Part shown: in pieces, positions 28,568 to 42,990 of the stretch
Layout of the letters: each line of letters starts with the position of its first letter
Position numbering within the stretch: the stretch's first letter is position 1
Assembly: GCF_027947575.1 (NCBI RefSeq)
Contig: NZ_CP116256.1
Coordinates: 7,502,001-7,566,000 of the forward strand
DNA: 64,000 nucleotides
Direction: 5' to 3'
DNA from: Streptomyces rubrogriseus
GTDB lineage: Bacteria > Actinomycetota > Actinomycetes > Streptomycetales > Streptomycetaceae
The notes under the pieces: generated by a model
Seen by the model: the letters and a program-made list of their open reading frames with translations, nothing else
Told to the model about the DNA's origin: nothing
The model's database searches: none
Position numbers and translations under genes: made by a program

Positions 28568-29896
28568 TCACCCGGCATCCGGTATCGGCAGGGGCCGCCC
28601 CTCGATCGCCGCCGCCATCACCTCCGGGAAGAGATCGGGCGTGCAGGCGAAGGCCGGTGCGCCGAGCGCCGCGAGGGCCGCCGCGTGATCCCGGTCGTAC
28701 GCGGGCGTGCCCTCGTCGGACAGGGCCAGCAGGGTCACGAACCGCACCCCCGCGGCCTGCATCGCCGCGACCCGCTTGAGCATCTCCTCACGTATGCCGC
28801 CCTCGTACAGATCGCTGATCAGCACGACCACCGTGTCCGCGGGCCGGGTGATCCGCGACTGGCAGTACGCCAGCGCGCGGTTGATGTCCGTACCGCCGCC
28901 GAGTCGCGTGCCGAAGAGCACGTCGACCGGGTCGTCGAGCTGGTCGGTGAGGTCGGCGACCGCCGTGTCGAAGACGACGAGCCGGGTGTCGATCGAGCGC
29001 ATGGACGCCAGCACCGCGCCGAACACGGCGGCGTACACGAGGGAAGCCGCCATCGACCCGGACTGGTCGACGCACAGGACGATCTCCTTCTTGACCGAAC
29101 GGGACGCCCGCCCGTAGCCGACGAGCCGCTCCGGCACGACCGTGCGGTGCTCCGGCAGGTAGTGCTTGAGGTTGGCTCCGATCGTGCGGTTCCAGTCGAT
29201 GTCATGGGGGCGGGGCCGGGCGGTGCGGGCACTGCGGTCCAGGGCGCCGGACAGGGTGCCGCGGGTGCGGGTGACGAGGCGCTTCTCCAGGTCCTCGACG
29301 ACCTTGCGCACGACGGCCCGTGCCGTCTCCTTCGTCGTGTCCGGCATCGCCTCGTTCAGGGACAGCAGGGTGCCGACGAGGTGTACGTCGGCCTCCACGG
29401 CCTCGAGCATCTCCGGCTCCAGCAGGAGCGTGGCGAGCCCGAGCCGGTCGATCGCGTCCCGCTGCATCACCTGGACCACCGGGGACGGGAAATAGGTCCG
29501 GATGTCCCCCAGCCAGCGCGCCACCGCCGGCGCGGAGGCCCCGAGCCCCGCCGCGCGGTCCCGGCCCGCCCGGGGGGCGCCCCCTCTTCCGTACAGCGCG
29601 GTGAGTGCCCCGTCCATCGCGGCGTCCCGTCCGGAGAGCACGTGGCCGGTGCCGTCGGCCGGGTCACCGCCGAGTACGAGGCGCCAGCGCCGCAGCCGCT
29701 CCCGTGCCGCCTCGGCCTCCACCGGCTCGCTCACCGTCCCGCGTCCGGTCATGGGCTCCGTCATGGGCTCCGTCATGCGGCCGGTCATGTCTCCGGTCTT
29801 GCCTCCCGTCCTGTCTCCGGTCTTGCCTCCCGTCCTGTCTCCGGTCTTGCCTCCCGTCCTGTCTCCGGTCTTGTCTCCCGTCCTGTCTCCGGTCAT
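28568..29896 (-). CDS. von Willebrand factor A domain protein of the MoxR-DUF5682 locus
   Basis: 442 aa. The N-terminal 50 residues are tandem TGDRTGGK-type repeats. About 60-240 is an uncharacterised helical part (WLGDIRTYFPSPVVQVMQRD). About 245-430 is a vWA domain with the MIDAS motif IVLCVDQSGSMAAS (DxSGS), the threonine loop LGGGTDINRAL and the Asp in VVVLISDLYEGG, so metal binding looks intact; it is of the CoxE-like type that pairs with MoxR ATPases. The ATG 29896 overlaps the DUF5682 stop (ATGA). Third gene of a MoxR-DUF5682-vWA operon. Internal ATGs after the repeats are alternative starts. Confidence 0.85.
   Translation of the reverse strand: MTGDRTGDKTGDRTGGKTGDRTGGKTGDRTGGKTGDMTGRMTEPMTEPMTGRGTVSEPVEAEAARERLRRWRLVLGGDPADGTGHVLSGRDAAMDGALTALYGRGGAPRAGRDRAAGLGASAPAVARWLGDIRTYFPSPVVQVMQRDAIDRLGLATLLLEPEMLEAVEADVHLVGTLLSLNEAMPDTTKETARAVVRKVVEDLEKRLVTRTRGTLSGALDRSARTARPRPHDIDWNRTIGANLKHYLPEHRTVVPERLVGYGRASRSVKKEIVLCVDQSGSMAASLVYAAVFGAVLASMRSIDTRLVVFDTAVADLTDQLDDPVDVLFGTRLGGGTDINRALAYCQSRITRPADTVVVLISDLYEGGIREEMLKRVAAMQAAGVRFVTLLALSDEGTPAYDRDHAAALAALGAPAFACTPDLFPEVMAAAIEGRPLPIPDAG
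29787..29896 (-). repeat. 24-bp tandem repeat at the 5' end of the vWA gene
   Basis: Unit CTGTCTCCGGTCTTGCCTCC plus CGTC on the + strand, at 29787, 29811, 29835 and 29859, with a partial copy to 29896. Each encodes TGGKTGDR-like octapeptides on the minus strand. Two copies of the 12-bp ATGGGCTCCGTC follow at about 29752-29776. Confidence 0.9.
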
Positions 29897-32340
29897 GTGT
29901 CCGCCCCCACCAGGTCGTTGTCGTCCGGCGCCGGGTGCCGGCCCAGCAGCAGCCGGACCACCGGCAGCACCGCGTCGGCCCGCGCGGGGTCGAGGCCCGC
30001 CGCGAAACCCGGTACGCCGGAACCGGCCGTCGTCACCCTCCCCCGCGCCTCCGGCCCGCGTCTGACCAGCTCGCCGAGGCCGCGGCGCACTCCCGGCTCG
30101 TAGGCGGAGAACGTACGGCGCAGCAGGGGCAGTACGTCCGTGAACGCGTCGGCGGGCACGCCGGTCAGCCAGGCGTCGACCAGGGCCAGCAGCCGCTCGT
30201 CGTGCAGGAGGAGCAGGCCGCCGCCCGAGCCGCCGCCGACGAAGCCCTCGATCCAGGCCGCTGCGTCCGCCGGTGGCGTCCCCGGGGACAGCACCAGGCC
30301 CATGAGCCGGGCCGCCTCGTCCGGCGCCAGCTCGCCGTCGTCCAGCAGGAGCCGTACGGCCCGCCCGCGGACGACGCCGGGCACCGTGTCCCGCGCGGAA
30401 AGGGTGTGCAGCACGGCTCGCCAGCGGGGGTGCAGGTCGCCGCGGCCCGGCGCGGGGGCGTCACCGAGCAGGCCCACGGCCGTGTGCACGGCGTCCACGT
30501 GCCGGCGCATCTCCTCGGCCGCGTCGGCGTCCAGTGCGGCGCAGGCCGCGGGCAGGCCCACGAAGACGCGCTCGGCGAGCCCCTCGGCGACCTCCGCCAG
30601 GGCGCCGGTGTCCGTGCCGCGCACGTCGCCGTAGCGCAACGAGCGGACGAGAGCGGGCAGCGCCTGGGCGAGGTGGCCGACGTCCGTGTCGAGCGCGGCC
30701 CGGTCGGCGAGTATCCGCATCACCGGCGCGAGCGCGTCCGGCAGTTCGGCCAGCAGGCAGCGTTCGGCGAGCGCGGTGACCTCGGCGAGGCCCCGTGCGC
30801 TGACGGCGTCCGCCTGGGCCCTGGCGGTCGCGGCGGACAGCACGGTCGTGCCCCACACCCCGGCCTCGGCCACCCGCACCGACAGCTCCGGCTCCCACCG
30901 CAGCCGCCAGGTCTCCCGGAACGTGCCCGTGCTGCGCGACGCGACCGGCTCGCCCCAGCCGACGCCGAGCAGCCGCAGCCGGTGCAGCAGTCTGCTGCGC
31001 CCGGCGTCGGTCTCCTTGCGCAGGTCCAGCTCCAGCTCCCGCTCCGGCGCCTCGGGCCGCAGCCGCAGCCGCCGCTGGGCCCGGGTGAGGTCCCGCTGCA
31101 GCGGCACCGCGGGCGCCCCCACGGGCACCTCCCCCAGCACGTCCCCGACCACCAGGCGGTCGTGCACCAGCGCCAGCGGCACGTCCGAGCCGTCGCACAT
31201 CACCGCCCGCACCGCGTCCGTCGCCTCGGTCAGCCCGGGCAGCGGGCGTCCGCGGATCACCGCGAGCGTTTCGGCCAGCCGCGTGGCCTCGATGACGTGG
31301 GCCGGGGAGACGATCCTGTCCTCCGCCCGCAGCAGACCGGCCACCTTGGTCAGCCAGCGCTCGACGGGCCGGTCGACCGCGGCGAACAGGTGCCCGTACC
31401 AGCCGGGTGACTCGATCCCCGCCCCGTACCCACCCGCCCGGGACAGTCTGCGATAGGTCCAGGGCACCCAGGTCATGTCCACCTTGGTCCTGGGCAGCCC
31501 CTTCAGCAGGGCCCGGTCGGCGGCGACGGTGGCCTTGCGGCGCAGCGCGGGCACGTGCCACGCCCCGCAGACCACGGCCACGCCCTCGGCGAACTCCCGG
31601 CGCGCCGCCCGGACCTGAAGCCGCATGTGGGCCTCCCGCACCAGGTCCCGTACGTCACCGTCACCCCCCTCGCGGCCCTCCCCGCCCTCCGCCCCGCCGT
31701 CCACCTCTGTCTCGCGCAGCGCCGTCATGGCCTCCTCCAGCGCAGTGAACGGTGCGAGCGCGTCCCCCGCTCCCCGGCCCCGGTGCTCGATCACGTCCTC
31801 CCACCAGCGCTCGGGGTCGTCGTGCCCGGCGGCCGCGGCGAGGGCGGCGAGCGGATCGCGGCGGACATCGGCGGGTGCGGTACCGGGTCGGCCCGGCGGG
31901 CCCTGGTCGTCCGCCTGGCCGTCCGCATCGACGTCCGCGTAGCCGTCCGCCGCCCGCCACGCCAGCGTGTGCGTGGCCGGGAGGTCGATGAAGCGGGCCG
32001 GGACGTCGTGCTCCAGGGCCCAGCGGACGGCCACCCACTCCGGGGAGAACTCGGCCAGCGGCCAGAAGGCCGAGCGGCCCGGCTCGTCCACGGCGTGGGC
32101 GAGGAGCGCGACCGGCGGCCGCATGTCCTCGTCGGCGGCCAGCGGGATCAGGGCGTCGGCCTCCGGAGGTCCCTCGATCAGCACGACCCCCGGCCGGGTC
32201 GCCTCCAGCGCGGCCCGCACCGCCCGGGCCGACCCCGGCCCGTGGTGGCGTACCCCGAGCAGCAGCGGCCGACCTCCGGGCTCACCGGCGCCGCCCTGCC
32301 CACCCGGACCGCCGCCCCCGGCCCGGTCAGTGCCCGTCAC
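29893..32340 (-). CDS. DUF5682 family protein
   Basis: 815 aa. Starts GTG 32340 with GGGGGA 5 nt upstream. After a Gly-rich lead, LLLGVRHHGPGSARAVRAAL, VVLIEGPPEADALIPLAA and VALLAHAVDEPGRSAFWPLA are the conserved N-terminal block of this family; VVCGAWHVPALRRK (about 290) is another. The C-terminal half is helical (DRAALDTDVGHLAQALPALV...). The N-terminal blocks have the look of a TraB-like fold (HHGPGS, EGP, GAWH), but that is a guess. It lies between the MoxR ATPase and the vWA gene and overlaps the latter by 4 nt. Biochemical role unknown. Confidence 0.8.
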   Translation of the reverse strand: MTGTDRAGGGGPGGQGGAGEPGGRPLLLGVRHHGPGSARAVRAALEATRPGVVLIEGPPEADALIPLAADEDMRPPVALLAHAVDEPGRSAFWPLAEFSPEWVAVRWALEHDVPARFIDLPATHTLAWRAADGYADVDADGQADDQGPPGRPGTAPADVRRDPLAALAAAAGHDDPERWWEDVIEHRGRGAGDALAPFTALEEAMTALRETEVDGGAEGGEGREGGDGDVRDLVREAHMRLQVRAARREFAEGVAVVCGAWHVPALRRKATVAADRALLKGLPRTKVDMTWVPWTYRRLSRAGGYGAGIESPGWYGHLFAAVDRPVERWLTKVAGLLRAEDRIVSPAHVIEATRLAETLAVIRGRPLPGLTEATDAVRAVMCDGSDVPLALVHDRLVVGDVLGEVPVGAPAVPLQRDLTRAQRRLRLRPEAPERELELDLRKETDAGRSRLLHRLRLLGVGWGEPVASRSTGTFRETWRLRWEPELSVRVAEAGVWGTTVLSAATARAQADAVSARGLAEVTALAERCLLAELPDALAPVMRILADRAALDTDVGHLAQALPALVRSLRYGDVRGTDTGALAEVAEGLAERVFVGLPAACAALDADAAEEMRRHVDAVHTAVGLLGDAPAPGRGDLHPRWRAVLHTLSARDTVPGVVRGRAVRLLLDDGELAPDEAARLMGLVLSPGTPPADAAAWIEGFVGGGSGGGLLLLHDERLLALVDAWLTGVPADAFTDVLPLLRRTFSAYEPGVRRGLGELVRRGPEARGRVTTAGSGVPGFAAGLDPARADAVLPVVRLLLGRHPAPDDNDLVGADT

Positions 32341-32442: not shown

Positions 32443-33564
32443 TCACGCGGTCACCTCCCGGCAGGCCCGGTAGAAGTCCTGCCAGCCCTCGCGCTCGCGC
32501 ACGACCGTCTCGAGGTACTCCTGCCAGACGACGCGGTCGGTGCCCGGGTCGCGGACGACCGCGCCGAGGATCCCGGCGGCGAGGTCGCCGGGCCGCAGCA
32601 CCCCGTCGCCGAAGTGGGCGGACAGCGCGAGACCTCCGGTGACGACGGAGATGGCCTCGGCCGTGGACAGCGTGCCGCTGGGCGACTTGACCTTCGTACG
32701 GCCGTCGCTGGTCAGCCCGTCGCGCAGCTCGCGGAAGACGGTGACCACGCGCCGGATCTCGTCGGTGCCGTCGGGCGCCGACGGCAGGTCGAGGGAGCGG
32801 CCGATCTGGTCGACGCGGCGCGTGACGATGTCGACCTCGGCCTCGGCGCTCTCCGGCAGCGGCAGCACGACGGTGTTGAAGCGGCGGCGCAGGGCGCTGG
32901 ACAGGTCGTTGACCCCGCGGTCGCGGTCGTTGGCGGTGGCGATCAGGTTGAAGCCGTGCACCGCCTGCACCTCCTCGCCGAGCTCCGGTATCGGCAGGGT
33001 CTTCTCCGACAGGAGCGTGATCAGGGAGTCCTGCACGTCGGCCGGGATGCGGGTCAGCTCCTCGACCCGGACGGTCGCGCCCTCCGTCATGGCCCGCATG
33101 ACCGGGCTGGGCACGAGGGCGTCCCGGCCGGGGCCGTGGGCGAGGAGCCGCGCGTAGTTCCAGCCGTAGCGGATCGCTTCCTCGGGAGTGCCGGCCGTGC
33201 CCTGCACCAGCAGGGTCGAGTCGCCGCTGACGGCCGCGGCGAGGTGCTCGGACACCCAGGTCTTCGCGGTGCCGGGCACGCCGAGCAGGAGCAGGGCGCG
33301 GTCGGTGGCGAGCGTGGTGACGGCGACCTCGACGACGCGGCGCGGGCCCACGTACTTCGGGGTGATCACCGTGCCGTCGGGCAGGGTGCCGCCGAGCAGA
33401 TAGGTGGCGACGGCCCACGGCGACAGCTTCCAGCGGGCCGGACGCGGACGGTCGTCCTGCCCGGCCAGCGAGGCCAGTTCGGCCGCGAACGCGTGCTCCG
33501 CGTGCGGCCGCAACACCTGTCGCGGCACTTCGGCCCCGGGCGTCCGTTCGACGAATGCAGGCAT
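32443..33564 (-). CDS. MoxR-type AAA+ ATPase
   Basis: 373 aa. AAA+ domain about 60-330: Walker A LLLGVPGTAKTWVSEHLA, a Walker B-like segment RVEELTRIPADVQDSLITLL, sensor 1 in FNLIATANDRDRGVNDLS with the arginine finger area SALRRRFNTVVLPLP, and a C-terminal helical lid. MoxR ATPases typically work with a vWA partner as a chaperone-like or remodelling pair; both are in this operon, 5' to 3' MoxR, DUF5682, vWA. ATG 33564 has GGAGGGGG upstream. Its promoter region carries a RecA-NDp-type motif. Confidence 0.88.
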   Translation of the reverse strand: MPAFVERTPGAEVPRQVLRPHAEHAFAAELASLAGQDDRPRPARWKLSPWAVATYLLGGTLPDGTVITPKYVGPRRVVEVAVTTLATDRALLLLGVPGTAKTWVSEHLAAAVSGDSTLLVQGTAGTPEEAIRYGWNYARLLAHGPGRDALVPSPVMRAMTEGATVRVEELTRIPADVQDSLITLLSEKTLPIPELGEEVQAVHGFNLIATANDRDRGVNDLSSALRRRFNTVVLPLPESAEAEVDIVTRRVDQIGRSLDLPSAPDGTDEIRRVVTVFRELRDGLTSDGRTKVKSPSGTLSTAEAISVVTGGLALSAHFGDGVLRPGDLAAGILGAVVRDPGTDRVVWQEYLETVVREREGWQDFYRACREVTA

Positions 33565-33606: not shown

Positions 33607-33629
33607 ACGGTGCACCACGCCACTGACAA
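33607..33629 (-). promoter_or_regulatory. RecA-NDp/PafBC-type promoter for the MoxR operon
   Basis: Reading leftwards, TTGTCAGTGGC (33629-33619) is followed after 6 nt by CACCGT (33612-33607). The published actinobacterial DNA-damage promoter is TTGTCAGTGGC-N6-TAGGGT (loosely TTGTCRGTG-N8-TAnnnT); the upstream element is a perfect match and the -10 keeps the A at position 2 and T at 6. The predicted start near 33600 gives a leader of about 36 nt with a GGAGGGGG site. Confidence 0.65.
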
Positions 33630-33665
33630 TCGCTCTGACCTGCGCAAATGATCACGCACGGGCCA

Positions 33666-33688
33666 TTGTCAGTGGGGGGATCTACCTT
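33666..33688 (+). promoter_or_regulatory. RecA-NDp/PafBC-type promoter for the SWIM-family operon
   Basis: TTGTCAGTG (33666-33674), exactly 8 nt, then TACCTT (33683-33688): a full match to TTGTCRGTG-N8-TAnnnT. Predicted transcription start 33694-33696 falls on the ATG at 33696, suggesting a leaderless mRNA. Together with 33621-33630 it forms a 10-bp inverted repeat (CACTGACAAT / ATTGTCAGTG) across the divergent promoters. Confidence 0.75.
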
Positions 33689-33695
33689 CGATGGC

Positions 33696-34787
33696 ATGGC
33701 TCGGCACGGGGTGCGCCGGGGTGGGGGGCCGGGACGAGGGGGCGATGTGGGGACAGCAGTGCGAGGGCCGGGCGGGGAGGGTGGGCGCGGGTGCGCGGAG
33801 GAGGGGACCGCGGGTGCGTCCGCCCCCGCGGCCACGTCCGATCCCGAGGCGGCGCGGCGCCGGGCGGAGCGGCGGGCCGAGCGGGTCACCGCCGGTGCGA
33901 CGGAGCTGGAGCAGCGGCTCGCGGACCTCCTGCGCACCGGCCTGGCCGGCGCCGAACAGGCGGGTTACGGGCTGTGGGAGGAGACGGCGGCCCGCATGGT
34001 CGACGCGCAGGCGCCGGGGCTGGCCTCGCGCGTGCGGGAGCTGGGCGCCATACCGTCGTCGGGTCCGGGCTGGCCGGTGCGGCTGCTCGAGGAGTGCGCC
34101 CTGCTCCACCTGCTCGACCGTGGCTGGCTGGGCCGCGAGCGGCTGCCGGACGGCCTGGCGGCGACGGTCCGTTCACGCGTGGGCCTGCCCACGTCCGCGG
34201 ACGGACCTCCGGTGCGGGACCACTGGCTGGTCCTCGCCCAGTACGACACCGCGGACGCCCGGCTGACGACCCGTCGCATCTGGCTGTACGGCAAGGAGTC
34301 CGACCGCACGGCGCTGCTCCTCTCCTACGGCGCCGCGGGCCGGGCACCCGAGCTGACGCTGCCGGTGGGGGCGGCGCTGGACGCCGAGATCTCCGCGTAT
34401 CCGGGTACGGGGCAACAACGGGCGGCCCTCGGCCGCCGGTTCGCACCGCCCGAACCCGCGCGGACACGCCCGCCCGGGGTGACGACGTCGCAGGCGGCCG
34501 TCCGGTACGGCGAGGCCCTCCGCGACGACCCGTGGCTGGACTCGGTGCCGGTGACCCTGGAGCGGGTGGTCCCCGTACCGGACGGCGACGGCTGGCAACT
34601 GGCGGACGCCGACGGGGACACGGCGCTGCCGCTCGCCGGGGCCGGGGGGAACGGACCGGGTCTGTGGCGCCTGGTCGCGCTGGCGGGCGGTGCGCCGGTC
34701 ACGGTCTTCGGTGAGTGCGGCCACCGGGGCTTCACGCCGCTGACGGCCTGGCCGGCCGGGCCGGGTCCCGCGGTGCCGCTGTGCTGA
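33696..34787 (+). CDS. SWIM zinc-finger family protein lacking the SWIM finger
   Basis: 363 aa. From about residue 45 on (DPEAARRRAERRAERVTAGA, TELEQRLADLLRTGLAGAEQ, LWEETAARMVDAQAPGLASR, DHWLVLAQYDTADARLTTRR, VTVFGECGHRGFTPLTAW) it follows the bacterial SWIM-family proteins that accompany MoxR-vWA loci. Those are about 440-460 aa and begin with a CxCxxxxxPCKH-type finger; here residues 1-45 are a Gly/Arg-rich low-complexity stretch and no frame of 33600-33850 encodes the finger. MARHGVR may be a remnant of the real N-terminus, so an internal deletion of about 90-100 codons is likely. ATG 33696 was chosen because it coincides with the predicted transcript start. Confidence 0.65.
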   Translation: MARHGVRRGGGPGRGGDVGTAVRGPGGEGGRGCAEEGTAGASAPAATSDPEAARRRAERRAERVTAGATELEQRLADLLRTGLAGAEQAGYGLWEETAARMVDAQAPGLASRVRELGAIPSSGPGWPVRLLEECALLHLLDRGWLGRERLPDGLAATVRSRVGLPTSADGPPVRDHWLVLAQYDTADARLTTRRIWLYGKESDRTALLLSYGAAGRAPELTLPVGAALDAEISAYPGTGQQRAALGRRFAPPEPARTRPPGVTTSQAAVRYGEALRDDPWLDSVPVTLERVVPVPDGDGWQLADADGDTALPLAGAGGNGPGLWRLVALAGGAPVTVFGECGHRGFTPLTAWPAGPGPAVPLC

Positions 34788-34822
34788 CCCGTCCCGAGCG
34801 TTACGAATCGGAGGCGAACGAC

Positions 34823-36637
34823 ATGACCAGGACGCCCGCACCGGCAGACCCGTCCGCACCGGCGCCGGCCACCGTGCCCGGGCCGACCGCCGAGCCCGGG
34901 TTCTCCCCGCCGGCCACCGCGCCGACGCACCCCACGGCCCCCGGGTCGGCCACCGGTCCCCCGATCGACGCCGAACCCGGCGCCGCTCCCCGGGCAACCG
35001 CCACCACCGGACCCGATCCCGGTCTCGGACCGGGTACCGCACCCGGTCCCGGTGTGTGGGAGGAACTGGTCACCTCGGCGCTGCTGGGTACGGACCGGCG
35101 TCCGCCATCGGGTGACGGGCGCGGTCCCGGGGCCGCGGCCGCGTTGCTGGACGCGGCGGCCGCGGAGACCGTCCGCCGCCGCGCCGGACTGCGACCGGCC
35201 CGCGCGGCCCGGCGCCCCGAGCCCGCGCCCGAGGACCCCCGCCCGCCGCTGCCGCCCGCCGCCGCCCGCCGGCTCACGGCGCTGCTCACCGACCGCCCCG
35301 GCGCGGCGGGCGGTGGCCGCAAAGGCAGCGCTCCCGATCTGATGGAACTGCTGCCCCAGTGGCTGGCGACGGCGAACGCCCGCGGTTTCGCGGCACCGCC
35401 CCAGGCGCTTCCCGCGCTGCTGGACGCGGCCCGGGGCCGTACGGACCTGCGGCCCGCGGCGCTGAGGTTCGCGGGGCCCCGCGCCCTGTGGCTGGCCCGG
35501 CTGAATCCGGACTGGCGGTTCGCCCTGCGCGCGACGCCCGGCGGAGGGACCGCGCTCCCGGGCTCCGATGCCACGGAGCGGGTGCGCGCGCTCTGGAACG
35601 AGGGCCTGTTCGCCGAACGGGTCACCCTCCTGGCGTCCCTGCGCGCCCGCGACCCGGCCCGCGCCCGCGAACTGCTGGCGTCGACCTGGGCGACCGAGCG
35701 GGCCGAGGACCGGCTGATGTTCCTCGACTCGCTGCGGACCGGGCTGGAGGCGGCGGACGAGCCGTTCCTGGAGCAGGCGCTGGCCGACCGCAGCCGCAAC
35801 GTACGGGCCACGGCGGCGGAGTTGCTGTCCGCGCTGCCGCACTCGGCGCTGGCCGCGCGGATGGCGGCGCGGGCCGCGACGTGCGTGTCCCTCGACCGCA
35901 CCCTCGCCCCGCCGGCGATCGCCGTCGAGGCGCCGCACGAGTGCGACGCGGGTATGGAGCGGGACGGCGTGGTGGCCAAGCCGCCGGCCGGGCGGGGCGA
36001 ACGCTCGTGGTGGTTCGGCCAGTTGGTGGAGGCGGCCCCGCTGTCCACCTGGCCGGCCCGGCTGGCGGGACGCACGGCCGAGGAGATCGTCGCCCTGCCG
36101 GTGTCCGACGGCTGGCGGAACGAACTGCACGCGGCCTGGTGCCGCGCGGCCGTACGACAGCGCGACGGCGTGTGGGCGAGGGCACTGCTCGGCGCGCCCA
36201 CGGCACCGGAGGCGGGCGGTCCGGGCGCGGTCTCGCTGGCCGAGCGGGCCAAACTGCTCGGCACGCTGGGCGCCGGTGAACGGGCCGAGTGGGTCGCCGG
36301 GTTCATCGCGACGCACGGGCTGTCCGAGGCGTTCCAGCTGCTCGGCATGTGCGGGGTGCCGTGGGCGACGCCGCTGGGCCGGGCGGTGGTCGACGCGCTC
36401 AACATCGCCCGGGACGCCGGGAGCTACCCCTGGAGCTTCAGCGGCGTCATGGGCCTGGCCGAACGCTGCCTCGACCCCTCGGAGGCGGGCCGGCTCGACG
36501 GCCTGCTGGCGATACCGGACGAGCCGGAGGACGCGTCGCCGGGGGCCGGCGGGTACTGGGCGGAGGCGTTCCAGCGGCTCGTCACCACGTTGCGCCTGCG
36601 CGCGGCGATGGCCGCGGAACTCGGGGCGGGGCCGTGA
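34823..36637 (+). CDS. DUF5691 family protein
   Basis: 604 aa, ATG 34823 with GGAGG 8 nt upstream; 35 nt after the SWIM-family gene. The first 75 residues are Pro/Ala-rich and variable, then WEELVTSALLGTDRRPP, the family's opening block. The rest is helical, HEAT-like: LMELLPQWLATANARGFAAP, RLMFLDSLRTGLEAADEPFL, EQALADRSRNVRATAAELLS and EWVAGFIATHGLSEAFQLLG. It is a constant partner of the SWIM/MoxR/DUF5682/vWA genes in actinobacteria. Function unknown; the helical-repeat form suggests a scaffold. Confidence 0.8.
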   Translation: MTRTPAPADPSAPAPATVPGPTAEPGFSPPATAPTHPTAPGSATGPPIDAEPGAAPRATATTGPDPGLGPGTAPGPGVWEELVTSALLGTDRRPPSGDGRGPGAAAALLDAAAAETVRRRAGLRPARAARRPEPAPEDPRPPLPPAAARRLTALLTDRPGAAGGGRKGSAPDLMELLPQWLATANARGFAAPPQALPALLDAARGRTDLRPAALRFAGPRALWLARLNPDWRFALRATPGGGTALPGSDATERVRALWNEGLFAERVTLLASLRARDPARARELLASTWATERAEDRLMFLDSLRTGLEAADEPFLEQALADRSRNVRATAAELLSALPHSALAARMAARAATCVSLDRTLAPPAIAVEAPHECDAGMERDGVVAKPPAGRGERSWWFGQLVEAAPLSTWPARLAGRTAEEIVALPVSDGWRNELHAAWCRAAVRQRDGVWARALLGAPTAPEAGGPGAVSLAERAKLLGTLGAGERAEWVAGFIATHGLSEAFQLLGMCGVPWATPLGRAVVDALNIARDAGSYPWSFSGVMGLAERCLDPSEAGRLDGLLAIPDEPEDASPGAGGYWAEAFQRLVTTLRLRAAMAAELGAGP

Positions 36638-40462: not shown

Positions 40463-42958
40463 CTAGAGCTTCTCCACCGGCGCGTACCGCAGCAGCAGCC
40501 GCTTCGGCTTGGTGTCCCCGAAGTCGATCGTCGCCTCGGCGTTCGACCCGGTGCCCTTGACGCCGACCACCGTGCCGAGCCCGAACTGGTCGTGCGTGAC
40601 GCGGTCGCCGACCGCCAGCGAGACCGTGGGCTGCTCGGCACCGGCCGACCTCCCCGTGGCGAAGCCGGACGCACCCGACGCCGAGGACCGGGACCTCGAC
40701 CGGGACGACGACAGCGAGGCCGCCACGCCCGAGACCGGAGCGGAAGGCGCGGGACCGTTCGCCCCGGTCCGCTTCCATTCCAGGTGCGGGGCCGGGATCT
40801 CCTCCAGGAACCGCGAGGGCGGGTTGTACGACGGCTGGCCCCAGGCGCTGCGCAGCGTCGACCGGGTCAGGTACAGCCGCTCACGTGCGCGCGTGATGCC
40901 GACGTAGGCGAGGCGCCGCTCCTCCTCCAGCTCCTTGGCCTGGCCGAGGGCGCGCATGTGCGGGAAGACGCCGTCCTCCATGCCGGTGAGGAAGACGACC
41001 GGGAACTCCAGGCCCTTGGCGGTGTGCAGGGTCATCAGGGTGACGACGCCGTCGCCGTCCTCCTCGTCCGGGATCTGGTCGGAGTCCGCGACGAGCGCGA
41101 CCTTCTCCAGGAAGTCGGCCAGCGTCCCGGCCTCCTCGCCCTCGGCCCGCTCCTGCTCGAACTCCAGGGCGACGGCCGCGAGTTCCTGGAGGTTCTCGAT
41201 GCGGGTCTCGTCCTGGGGGTCGGTGGAGGCCTGCAACTCGGCGAGGTACCCGGTGCGTTCGAGGATCGCCTCCAGGACGGTCGCCGGTCCGGCGCCGGAC
41301 TCGACGATCGTACGGAGGTCCTCCATGAGCGTGTTGAACCGCTTGACGGCGTTCGCGGAGCGCGCGGCCATCCCGTACGCCTCGTCGACGCGCCTCAGCG
41401 CCTGCGGGAAGCTGATCTTCTCGCGCTGGGAGAGGGCGTCGATCATCGCCTCCGCGCGGTCGCCGATGCCGCGCTTGGGGACGTTGAGGATGCGGCGCAG
41501 CGGCACCGAGTCCTCCGGGTTGGCCAGCACCCGCAGGTAGGCCAGGACGTCCCGGACCTCCTTGCGCTCGTAGAAGCGGACGCCGCCGACGACCTTGTAG
41601 GGCAGGCCGGTGCGGATGAAGACCTCTTCGAAGACACGGGACTGGGCGTTGGTCCGGTAGAAGACGGCGACGTCCCCGGCCTTGGCCTCGCCCGCGTCGG
41701 TGAGGCGGTCTATCTCGTCGGCGACGAACTGCGCCTCGTCGTGCTCGGTGTCGGCGACGTACCCGGTGATCCGGGCGCCGCTGCCCTGGTTGGTCCACAG
41801 GTTCTTGGGGCGGCGGGACTCGTTGCGCTCGATGACCGCGTTGGCGGCGCTGAGGATGGTCTGGGTGGAGCGGTAGTTCTGCTCGAGCAGGATCGTCGTC
41901 GCGTCCGGGTAGTCCTCCTCGAACTGGAGGATGTTGCGGATGGTGGCGCCGCGGAAGGCGTAGATCGACTGGTCGGCGTCGCCCACCACACACAGCTCGG
42001 CCGGCGGCACCTCGGCCTCCGGCGGCACGTCGACGGGGTGCTCCGAGGGCACGCCGACCAGCTCGCGCACCAGGGCGTACTGCGCGTGGTTGGTGTCCTG
42101 GTACTCGTCGACCAGGACGTGCCGGAAGCGGCGGCGGTAGTGCTCGGCGACGTCCGGGAAAGCGCGCAGCAGATTGACCGTCGTCATGATCAGGTCGTCG
42201 AAGTCGAGGGCGTTCGCCTCGCGCAGCCGCGACTGGTACATGGCGTAGGCCTGGGCGAGGGTCTTCTCGAAGCCGTCGGCCGCCTGGGCGGCGAAGTCCT
42301 CCTCGTCGATCAGCTCGTTCTTCAGGTTGCTGATCTTCGCGCTGAAGGACTTCGGCGGGAAGCGCTTGGGGTCCAAGTCCAGGTCGCGGCAGACCAGCGC
42401 CATGAGCCGCTTGGAGTCGGCGGCGTCGTAGATCGAGAACGACGAGGTGAAGCCGAGCTTCTTCGACTCGCGGCGCAGGATGCGCACGCACGCGCTGTGG
42501 AAGGTCATCACCCACATCGCGTTGGCGCGCGGGCCGACGAGCTGCTCGACGCGCTCCTTCATCTCGCCCGCGGCCTTGTTGGTGAAGGTGATCGCCAGGA
42601 TCTGGCCCGGGTGGACGTTCCGCTCGGCCAGCAGGTGGGCGATGCGGTGGGTGAGCACGCGGGTCTTGCCGGAGCCGGCACCGGCCACGATGAGCAGCGG
42701 GGAGCCGGAGTGGACGACGGCGGCCCGCTGGTTCTCGTTCAGCCCCTCCAGGAGGGCCGCGGCGTCCAGGGCGGGGCGCGGGGCGCCGTCCCGGTAGTGG
42801 GTGTCCCGCTGCGGGGGCGCGTCGAACTTCCCGCCGAACAGATCGTGCGGAACCGGCTCCGGTCCGTGATCGTCCTCGGGCGGCGGCGGGGGTTCCTCCT
42901 CGTGACCGCGGGGGGTCTGGAGGCTCGCCAGGAAGTTGTCGTCAAAGAGGCTGCTCAT
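40463..42958 (-). CDS. pcrA: ATP-dependent DNA helicase PcrA/UvrD, superfamily 1
   Basis: 831 aa. Helicase motifs in order: NENQRAAVVHSGSPLLIVAG (Q), AGAGSGKTRVLTHRIAHLL (Walker A), ILAITFTNKAAGEMKERV, HVLVDEYQDTNHAQY (DEYQD, motif II), VVGDADQSIYAFRGA (III), ILLEQNYRSTQTIL (IV), VTLMTLHTAKGLEFPVVFLT (V) and LAYVGITRARERLYL (VI). The N-terminal 60 residues are acidic and variable; the C-terminus ends in the small PcrA/UvrD tail domain (DRVTHDQFGLGTVVGVKG), which can bind RNA polymerase. Acts in nucleotide excision repair and replication-transcription conflict. Its promoter carries a DNA-damage motif. Confidence 0.95.
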   Translation of the reverse strand: MSSLFDDNFLASLQTPRGHEEEPPPPPEDDHGPEPVPHDLFGGKFDAPPQRDTHYRDGAPRPALDAAALLEGLNENQRAAVVHSGSPLLIVAGAGSGKTRVLTHRIAHLLAERNVHPGQILAITFTNKAAGEMKERVEQLVGPRANAMWVMTFHSACVRILRRESKKLGFTSSFSIYDAADSKRLMALVCRDLDLDPKRFPPKSFSAKISNLKNELIDEEDFAAQAADGFEKTLAQAYAMYQSRLREANALDFDDLIMTTVNLLRAFPDVAEHYRRRFRHVLVDEYQDTNHAQYALVRELVGVPSEHPVDVPPEAEVPPAELCVVGDADQSIYAFRGATIRNILQFEEDYPDATTILLEQNYRSTQTILSAANAVIERNESRRPKNLWTNQGSGARITGYVADTEHDEAQFVADEIDRLTDAGEAKAGDVAVFYRTNAQSRVFEEVFIRTGLPYKVVGGVRFYERKEVRDVLAYLRVLANPEDSVPLRRILNVPKRGIGDRAEAMIDALSQREKISFPQALRRVDEAYGMAARSANAVKRFNTLMEDLRTIVESGAGPATVLEAILERTGYLAELQASTDPQDETRIENLQELAAVALEFEQERAEGEEAGTLADFLEKVALVADSDQIPDEEDGDGVVTLMTLHTAKGLEFPVVFLTGMEDGVFPHMRALGQAKELEEERRLAYVGITRARERLYLTRSTLRSAWGQPSYNPPSRFLEEIPAPHLEWKRTGANGPAPSAPVSGVAASLSSSRSRSRSSASGASGFATGRSAGAEQPTVSLAVGDRVTHDQFGLGTVVGVKGTGSNAEATIDFGDTKPKRLLLRYAPVEKL

Positions 42959-42967
42959 CGCTCTCCG

Positions 42968-42990
42968 AGTCTAGGGCGCCCCACCGACAA
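42968..42990 (-). promoter_or_regulatory. RecA-NDp/PafBC-type promoter of pcrA
   Basis: Reading leftwards, TTGTCGGTG (42990-42982), 8 nt, TAGACT (42973-42968): a complete match to TTGTCRGTG-N8-TAnnnT. The predicted start at about 42961 is only 3 nt from the ATG at 42958, so the mRNA is probably leaderless or nearly so. Confidence 0.75.

Follow-up and report, generated by a model that had tools for sequence, protein, structure and literature searches.

Two outward-facing RecA-NDp (PafBC-type) promoters between a YehL-type MoxR/DUF5682/VWA operon and a SWIM-family/DUF5691 gene pair in Streptomyces

INTRODUCTION

Which signals drive a MoxR-DUF5682-VWA gene set and the SWIM-family/DUF5691 pair that points away from it, and do these genes belong to the DNA-damage response? 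The question is raised by a short intergenic region, positions 33607-33688, of the window, by which we mean the whole stretch of 64,000 nucleotides of Streptomyces rubrogriseus that was analysed. A sequence-only reading had proposed that both strands of this region carry the actinobacterial RecA-independent DNA-damage motif and that an AAA+/vWA system is thereby placed in the damage response together with pcrA.

In such responses PafBC is reported to act by sigma adaptation and to be activated by single-stranded DNA (PMC11804915). RecA-NDp promoters have already been described for recA and SCO6735 of Streptomyces coelicolor (PMC5087735). On the other hand, Stratton et al. (2022; PMC9380542) mention an initial search in which the PafBC motif of mycobacteria seemed to lack conservation in Streptomyces venezuelae. 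Here we examine the promoter pair, its distribution in the genome and in relatives, and the genes that it serves.

RESULTS

The intergenic region and its flanking genes

The features are the following.

28568..29896, minus strand: VWA_CoxE protein, homologue of E. coli YehP
29893..32340, minus strand: DUF5682 protein (PF18934), 815 aa, homologue of E. coli YehM
32443..33564, minus strand: MoxR-type AAA+ ATPase (AAA_5), 373 aa, 40% identity to E. coli YehL
33629-33607, minus strand: RecA-NDp/PafBC-type promoter variant, TTGTCAGTG-GCGTGGTG-CACCGT, which would serve MoxR-DUF5682-VWA
33620..33629, no strand: left arm of the inverted repeat, shared motif core, exact over 10 bp
33631..33645, minus strand: conserved element GCGCAGGTCAGAGCG, immediately upstream of the minus-strand motif
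33666..33675, no strand: right arm of the inverted repeat, shared motif core, exact over 10 bp
33666..33688, plus strand: RecA-NDp/PafBC-type promoter, TTGTCAGTG-GGGGGATC-TACCTT, which would serve the leaderless gene and DUF5691
33696..34787, plus strand: putative leaderless gene, 363 aa, orthologue of SWIM-finger proteins that itself has no finger
34715..36637, plus strand: DUF5691 protein (PF18944), ORF as listed, the true start may be later
42968..42990, minus strand: strict RecA-NDp site before pcrA/uvrD (ORF 40463-42958), weakly conserved

The region 33607-33688 is confirmed to contain two RecA-NDp (PafBC-type) promoters facing outward. We took the consensus TTGTCRGTG-N8-TAnnnT, which is mycobacterial, as quoted in PMC5656591. 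The plus copy is an exact instance in its 9-mer, its 8-nt spacer and its -10 region. In the minus copy the 9-mer is intact and the spacing is again 8 bases; a single base separates it from the consensus, its -10 region, CACCGT, starting with CA instead of the TA of the published mycobacterial TAnnnT. Thus the proposal of a motif on both strands holds fully for the plus copy, and for the minus copy with this departure at -10. The 10-bp inverted repeat that had been noticed is exact (33620-33629 and 33666-33675). In several lineages it is the plus-strand motif that has an element resembling GCGCAGGTCAGAGCG before it, placed relative to that motif as GCGCAGGTCAGAGCG is here relative to the minus-strand one.

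The adjacent MoxR AAA+, DUF5682 and VWA_CoxE proteins are homologous to YehL, YehM and YehP, which makes this a YehL-type system. Structural modelling of DUF5682 predicts an N-terminal domain, tentatively ChaN/EreC-like in fold, that aligns with ChaN and has a conserved His and a conserved Glu, and a C-terminal part made of helical repeats. The 5′ part of the VWA ORF contains a 24-bp tandem repeat (29784-29894 within the segment 29744-29903, 4.6 copies, 97% match).

On the plus side, the name SWIM given to the first gene does not suit the window copy, in which the SWIM finger is missing; the ORF of this gene, read from 33648, had no Pfam match. Most relatives have the finger: the pattern C-x-C...C-x-H near the N-terminus is present in 38 of 41 orthologues, the window copy being counted among the 41. 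It is also missing in 2 of the 40 other relatives and, among the matches listed, in 6 of 96 testable named relatives. Although the finger is lost, the window has retained both the promoter and the remainder of the protein. Another SWIM-finger protein of this genome (467 aa) has a leaderless-type RecA-NDp site as well (L013, G000:C1:2911656, minus strand), and the identical 23-base site occurs in another genome, G006.

The motif is far in excess of chance and predicts translation starts

The genome-wide search that the sequence-only reading had proposed gave 27 matches to the strict motif in the 8.41-Mb genome and 69 to a relaxed form (NAnnnT, any base at -12), against 0 for the reversed-pattern controls of both. 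The chance expectation per genome is 0 strict and 0.35 relaxed matches, according to an order-3 Markov model that takes no account of codon structure (24 Mb simulated, yielding 0 and 1 matches). Relative to genes predicted by simple codon scoring, the 69 relaxed sites divide into 53 outside genes and 16 within them (11 on the opposite strand, 5 on the same strand), most of these 16 probably being coincidental.

An ATG or GTG is located 6-7 nt past the -10 region at 29 of the 69 sites, compared with about 2 sites for each other offset. Of these 29 sites, 25 fall outside called genes, where another 28 relaxed sites lack a start codon at that distance. This is the position expected for leaderless messages, so that the motif predicts translation starts without any use of annotation. 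Sites followed by a start codon at 6-7 nt number 8 to 40 in each of seven further Streptomyces genomes and 6 in a genome from another family of the order, control matches being 0 in all eight. Five other Streptomyces genomes have 21 to 40 strict matches apiece, and a single control match occurred in one of the five.

The same sites put the minus-strand -10 region into context. Position -12 of the 29 leaderless-type sites is occupied by C in 14 cases, T in 12 and G in 3 (C 11, T 11 and G 3 when only those outside called genes are considered). CAnnnT and GAnnnT are thus common in this genome, and CACCGT is unremarkable here, though it departs from the mycobacterial consensus; 17 of the 29 sites likewise have no T at -12, and we therefore class the minus copy as a variant rather than a strict member.

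The two sites of the window form the only opposite-strand pair less than 2 kb apart among the 69 relaxed sites. When 69 sites are scattered at random, some opposite-strand pair closer than 100 bp appears in about 3% of trials. The closeness of the pair alone is therefore weak evidence, the strong evidence being its conservation in relatives.

Repair genes and the pafBC locus

For 47 proteins downstream of the sites, which cover part of the 69, Pfam families were sought. Sixteen belong to families of DNA repair, recombination or replication: UvrA, UvrB, MGMT (ogt), RuvC, RarA/MgsA, UDG, RecA, DinB (IMS), DnaX, a second DNA_pol3_delta2 protein, a PriA-domain protein, Lhr, the NAD-dependent ligase LigA, an endonuclease/exonuclease/phosphatase-family protein, an RNase_T exonuclease and a PD-(D/E)XK nuclease. 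A UvrD_C_2 protein located 732 bases from its site was left out of this count. The other 31 are outside the counted repair families or had no match, and include glyoxalases, ABC transporters, SUKH proteins and a DtxR-type repressor. Genes for SUKH-4, SMI1/KNR4, DUF6891, DUF5713 and DUF5937-ArsR proteins are also found behind the motif (L002, L019, L121, L132, L142); they are possible further members of the damage regulon.

The Pup-ligase locus of this genome contains both pafB and pafC, whose products match the PafBC chains of the structures 7p5x, 9fnd and 6sj9. The Pup-ligase/pafBC region is itself flanked by RecA-NDp sites (G000:C1:2437957, minus strand, and 2458288, plus strand), the genes next to them encoding a PD-(D/E)XK nuclease at one end and a DSHCT helicase at the opposite end.

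The suggestion that the AAA+/vWA system shares a damage response with pcrA is supported in its first part: both of its sites are conserved, the motif precedes many repair genes and pafB and pafC are present. It is weakened as regards pcrA, the site before this gene being poorly conserved, with an exact counterpart at the same geometry in one of five relatives, before a presumed pcrA.

Conservation in relatives

DUF5691 is encoded in 56 of 60 genomes sampled from the order, of which 44 belong to the genus of the window. In two of these 44 the contig ends before the intergenic region, leaving 42 evaluable Streptomyces genomes. Both sites are present in all 42. An exact 9-mer is found on the plus side in 41 of them and on the minus side in 39, the rest showing one change, at the first base. 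The start codon on the plus side lies exactly 7 nt past the -10 region in 42 of 42 genomes and, the base at -12 having been left free, the minus site carries a C there in every one. In four of these genomes the sites are 569-631 bp apart, and both are still kept. Among the matches listed, at least 119 loci in named genomes show the exact paired pattern (118 Streptomyces and one Actinacidiphila), with a start codon 6-7 bases past the plus site in 117 of the 119.

In another family (f3), all ten genomes read from one genus have a plus-type site where the SWIM gene starts; it is exact in two of them and one mismatch away from the strict motif in the other eight. Nine of the ten have a minus-type site before DUF5691, eight with an intact 9-mer; in the remaining one, G027, no minus-type site was found before DUF5691. 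Two of these ten genomes (L112 and L113) have SWIM, DUF5691, MoxR, DUF5682 and VWA genes in one single-strand run, where both types of site are present. Two f3 genomes of other genera gave two-mismatch matches only. The conservation of the motif in orthologous promoters, which the sequence-only reading had set as a test, is therefore borne out in 42 of 42 Streptomyces genomes and in most members of one f3 genus, with another gene order.

Outside the order, the strict motif is absent genome-wide from nine of ten DUF5682-bearing genomes, so that the link is documented within this order only. The ten DUF5682 stretches from other orders contain no exact site; they contain seven one-mismatch relaxed matches, one of them (L189) at a possible operon head.

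A paralogous operon carries the same type of site

Streptomyces genomes contain a paralogous operon encoding a 284-aa DUF4132 protein, a protein of about 1,700 aa with no Pfam match, a MoxR protein and a DUF5682-VWA_CoxE fusion; these domains were checked, as far as scanned, in the genome of the window and in two others, G001 and G008. In 18 of 19 Streptomyces loci a site lies at most about 100 bases from the first gene (12 exact, six with one mismatch), while none was found near the first gene in G052. Sixteen of these Streptomyces loci, 256,032 positions in total, contain 15 sites with no more than one mismatch to the strict motif, all at the operon promoters. In the other family, three of four loci of this operon have a site one mismatch from the relaxed motif and one has none.

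In the genome of the window the second DUF5682 is split into two frames, the second of which is continuous with VWA_CoxE (L197 3135-7060; G000:C1:3017134-3021059), and G001 and G008 have one long DUF5682-VWA frame at this locus. A third DUF5682 locus of the genome (L198, G000:C1:5450500-5465000) has no such site.

Correspondence with SCO4803-SCO4805

In S. coelicolor, SCO4804 is described as an 815-aa protein, and sco4804 and adjacent genes are reported to increase 8-fold on TopA depletion (PMC8120823). A polar insertion in SCO4804 lowers topA promoter activity, with SCO4805 possibly involved (PMC8120823). The window DUF5682 protein is also 815 aa long, and the published upstream gap of 103 bp compares with 102 bp to MoxR here, whereas the published downstream gap of 171 bp was not matched to a start codon. 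Given the similar length and gene spacing, on which the assignment rests, sco4804 is likely the orthologue of the window DUF5682 gene, and we take sco4803-4805 as probable orthologues of the window genes. The main text of PMC8120823 contains no MoxR, VWA, PafBC or DUF5682 and treats SCO4804 as a possible transcription regulator.

In TopA-depleted cells recA, recX, lexA, uvrA, dinP and others are also induced, according to PMC6637917, whose authors attribute the effect to the LexA regulon and also note single-stranded patches. On a simple interpretation, the sco4804 operon would respond to single-stranded DNA via PafBC.

DISCUSSION

Probable divergent promoters of a damage response

Our results make it probable that positions 33607-33688 are divergent PafBC-dependent promoters of the RecA-independent damage response, driving the genes of a putative AAA+/VWA machine of the YehL class. 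The two sites, their conservation, the company of repair genes, the presence of pafB and pafC and the homology to YehL, YehM and YehP are the observations that argue for it; PafBC control of both promoters is what we infer from the motif. According to the model that we propose, single-stranded DNA arising from damage or topological stress would activate PafBC, whose binding would let the housekeeping RNA polymerase use TTGTCRGTG promoters that lack a normal -35 box. The plus promoter would then give a leaderless mRNA for the SWIM-family/DUF5691 pair, and the minus promoter a leadered mRNA for the MoxR AAA+ ATPase, DUF5682 and its VWA partner. The products may form a damage-induced AAA+/VWA machine of the YehL class, with a presumed remodelling activity.

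Other explanations of the locus can be weighed against this model. The authors of the topA screen proposed that such genes respond directly to DNA supercoiling, in which case MoxR-DUF5682-VWA would not depend on PafBC and the motif would be incidental. The 8-fold increase of sco4804 and its neighbours on TopA depletion, and the effect of SCO4804 on topA transcription, speak in its favour (PMC8120823). However, the concomitant rise of recA, lexA, uvrA and dinP (PMC6637917) means that a damage response is running in TopA-depleted cells, and this is expected to activate PafBC promoters; the motif is also kept on both sides in 42 of 42 genomes. We thus find a direct supercoiling response unlikely. 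It is similarly improbable that only the plus promoter works via PafBC, the minus -10 being defective and the MoxR-DUF5682-VWA genes driven otherwise. Such a defect could be seen in the CACCGT that stands for TAnnnT, with its C at -12 in all 42 genomes, yet the same C is found at 14 of the 29 leaderless-type sites of the genome (11 of 25 outside called genes), and the minus site is kept in every one of the 42, even where it is separated from the plus site.

The motif could also be read by another regulator, for example ClgR, which has been reported to recognise the recA P1 (RecA-NDp) region in Mycobacterium smegmatis, as cited in PMC5656591. We consider this very unlikely: it was in vivo mapped PafBC binding sites that yielded the RecA-NDp motif, the PafBC initiation complex has been solved (PMC6789036, PMC11804915), and PafB and PafC are both encoded here. 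The two sites might also be mere coincidences in GC-rich DNA between genes. Matches with two mismatches are indeed seen at unrelated positions, but 27 strict and 69 relaxed matches against expectations of 0 and 0.35, and above all the conservation test, which refutes this explanation, leave it with next to no credit.

Implications

Under the preferred model of PafBC-dependent promoters, little-studied protein-remodelling genes common to Streptomyces and E. coli would take a place in the damage response, as our results suggest. We put forward, tentatively and as a possibility that we do not hold above its alternatives, that YehL-type MoxR/DUF5682/VWA sets could be dedicated machines for DNA damage or topological stress. 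Streptomyces would then have two paralogous copies under PafBC, one of them with a damage-inducible SWIM/DUF5691 partner, and DUF5682 would be a ChaN/EreC-like domain on a helical-repeat scaffold on which the AAA+/VWA pair works. If so, the reported effect of SCO4804 on topA would be a consequence of this role. The results suggest, too, that what has been published as a supercoiling response of sco4804 and its neighbours may be a response to DNA damage. A conserved damage promoter on two paralogous copies also provides a condition under which to seek their function.

These results bear as well on whether a PafBC response exists in Streptomyces, a question left open in PMC9380542. All eight Streptomyces genomes that were scanned in full (that of the window and seven others) are rich in the motif, and its -10 region is often not TAnnnT, which could explain the failure of a search with the mycobacterial motif. 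While the promoter class was already known, its association with two paralogous sets of YehL-type MoxR/DUF5682/VWA genes appears to be new: in the open-access literature searched we found no report of a RecA-NDp link to YehL-type systems, and no paper naming DUF5682 or DUF5691. Two papers of that literature name two or more of YehL, YehM, YehP and YehQ.

Comparison with known systems

The pairing of a MoxR AAA+ protein with a vWA protein is likewise found in the MoxR-vWA ternary conflict systems (Kaur et al. 2020). Here the bpMoxR profile scored 23.4 bits, below its 27-bit cut-off, and PADLOC gave no match for eight proteins.

The yehL-yehM-yehP-yehQ cluster of E. coli has homologues of the MoxR, DUF5682 and VWA proteins in the same order (40%, 27% and 36% identity), and YehL gives its name to a subfamily of MoxR ATPases (PMC3893208). 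A DUF4132 gene, yehI, is nearby in E. coli, and DUF4132 also heads the paralogous Streptomyces operon. The regions before yehI, yehK and yehL showed no LexA-like box, and BLAST detected no significant match between YehQ and the SWIM-family or DUF5691 proteins. Streptomyces differs from E. coli by the additional divergent SWIM-family/DUF5691 pair.

With the RecA-NDp promoters of mycobacteria and S. coelicolor, the promoters described here share the TTGTCRGTG element, the 8-nt spacing, the -10 region, the occurrence before repair genes and the presence of pafB and pafC. They differ from the known examples (Mycobacterium tuberculosis and M. smegmatis; recA and SCO6735 of S. coelicolor) by the CA that replaces TA in the minus -10, in a genome where many sites have C or G at -12 with a start codon 6-7 nt further on, and by their arrangement, two such promoters diverging here within 82 bp.
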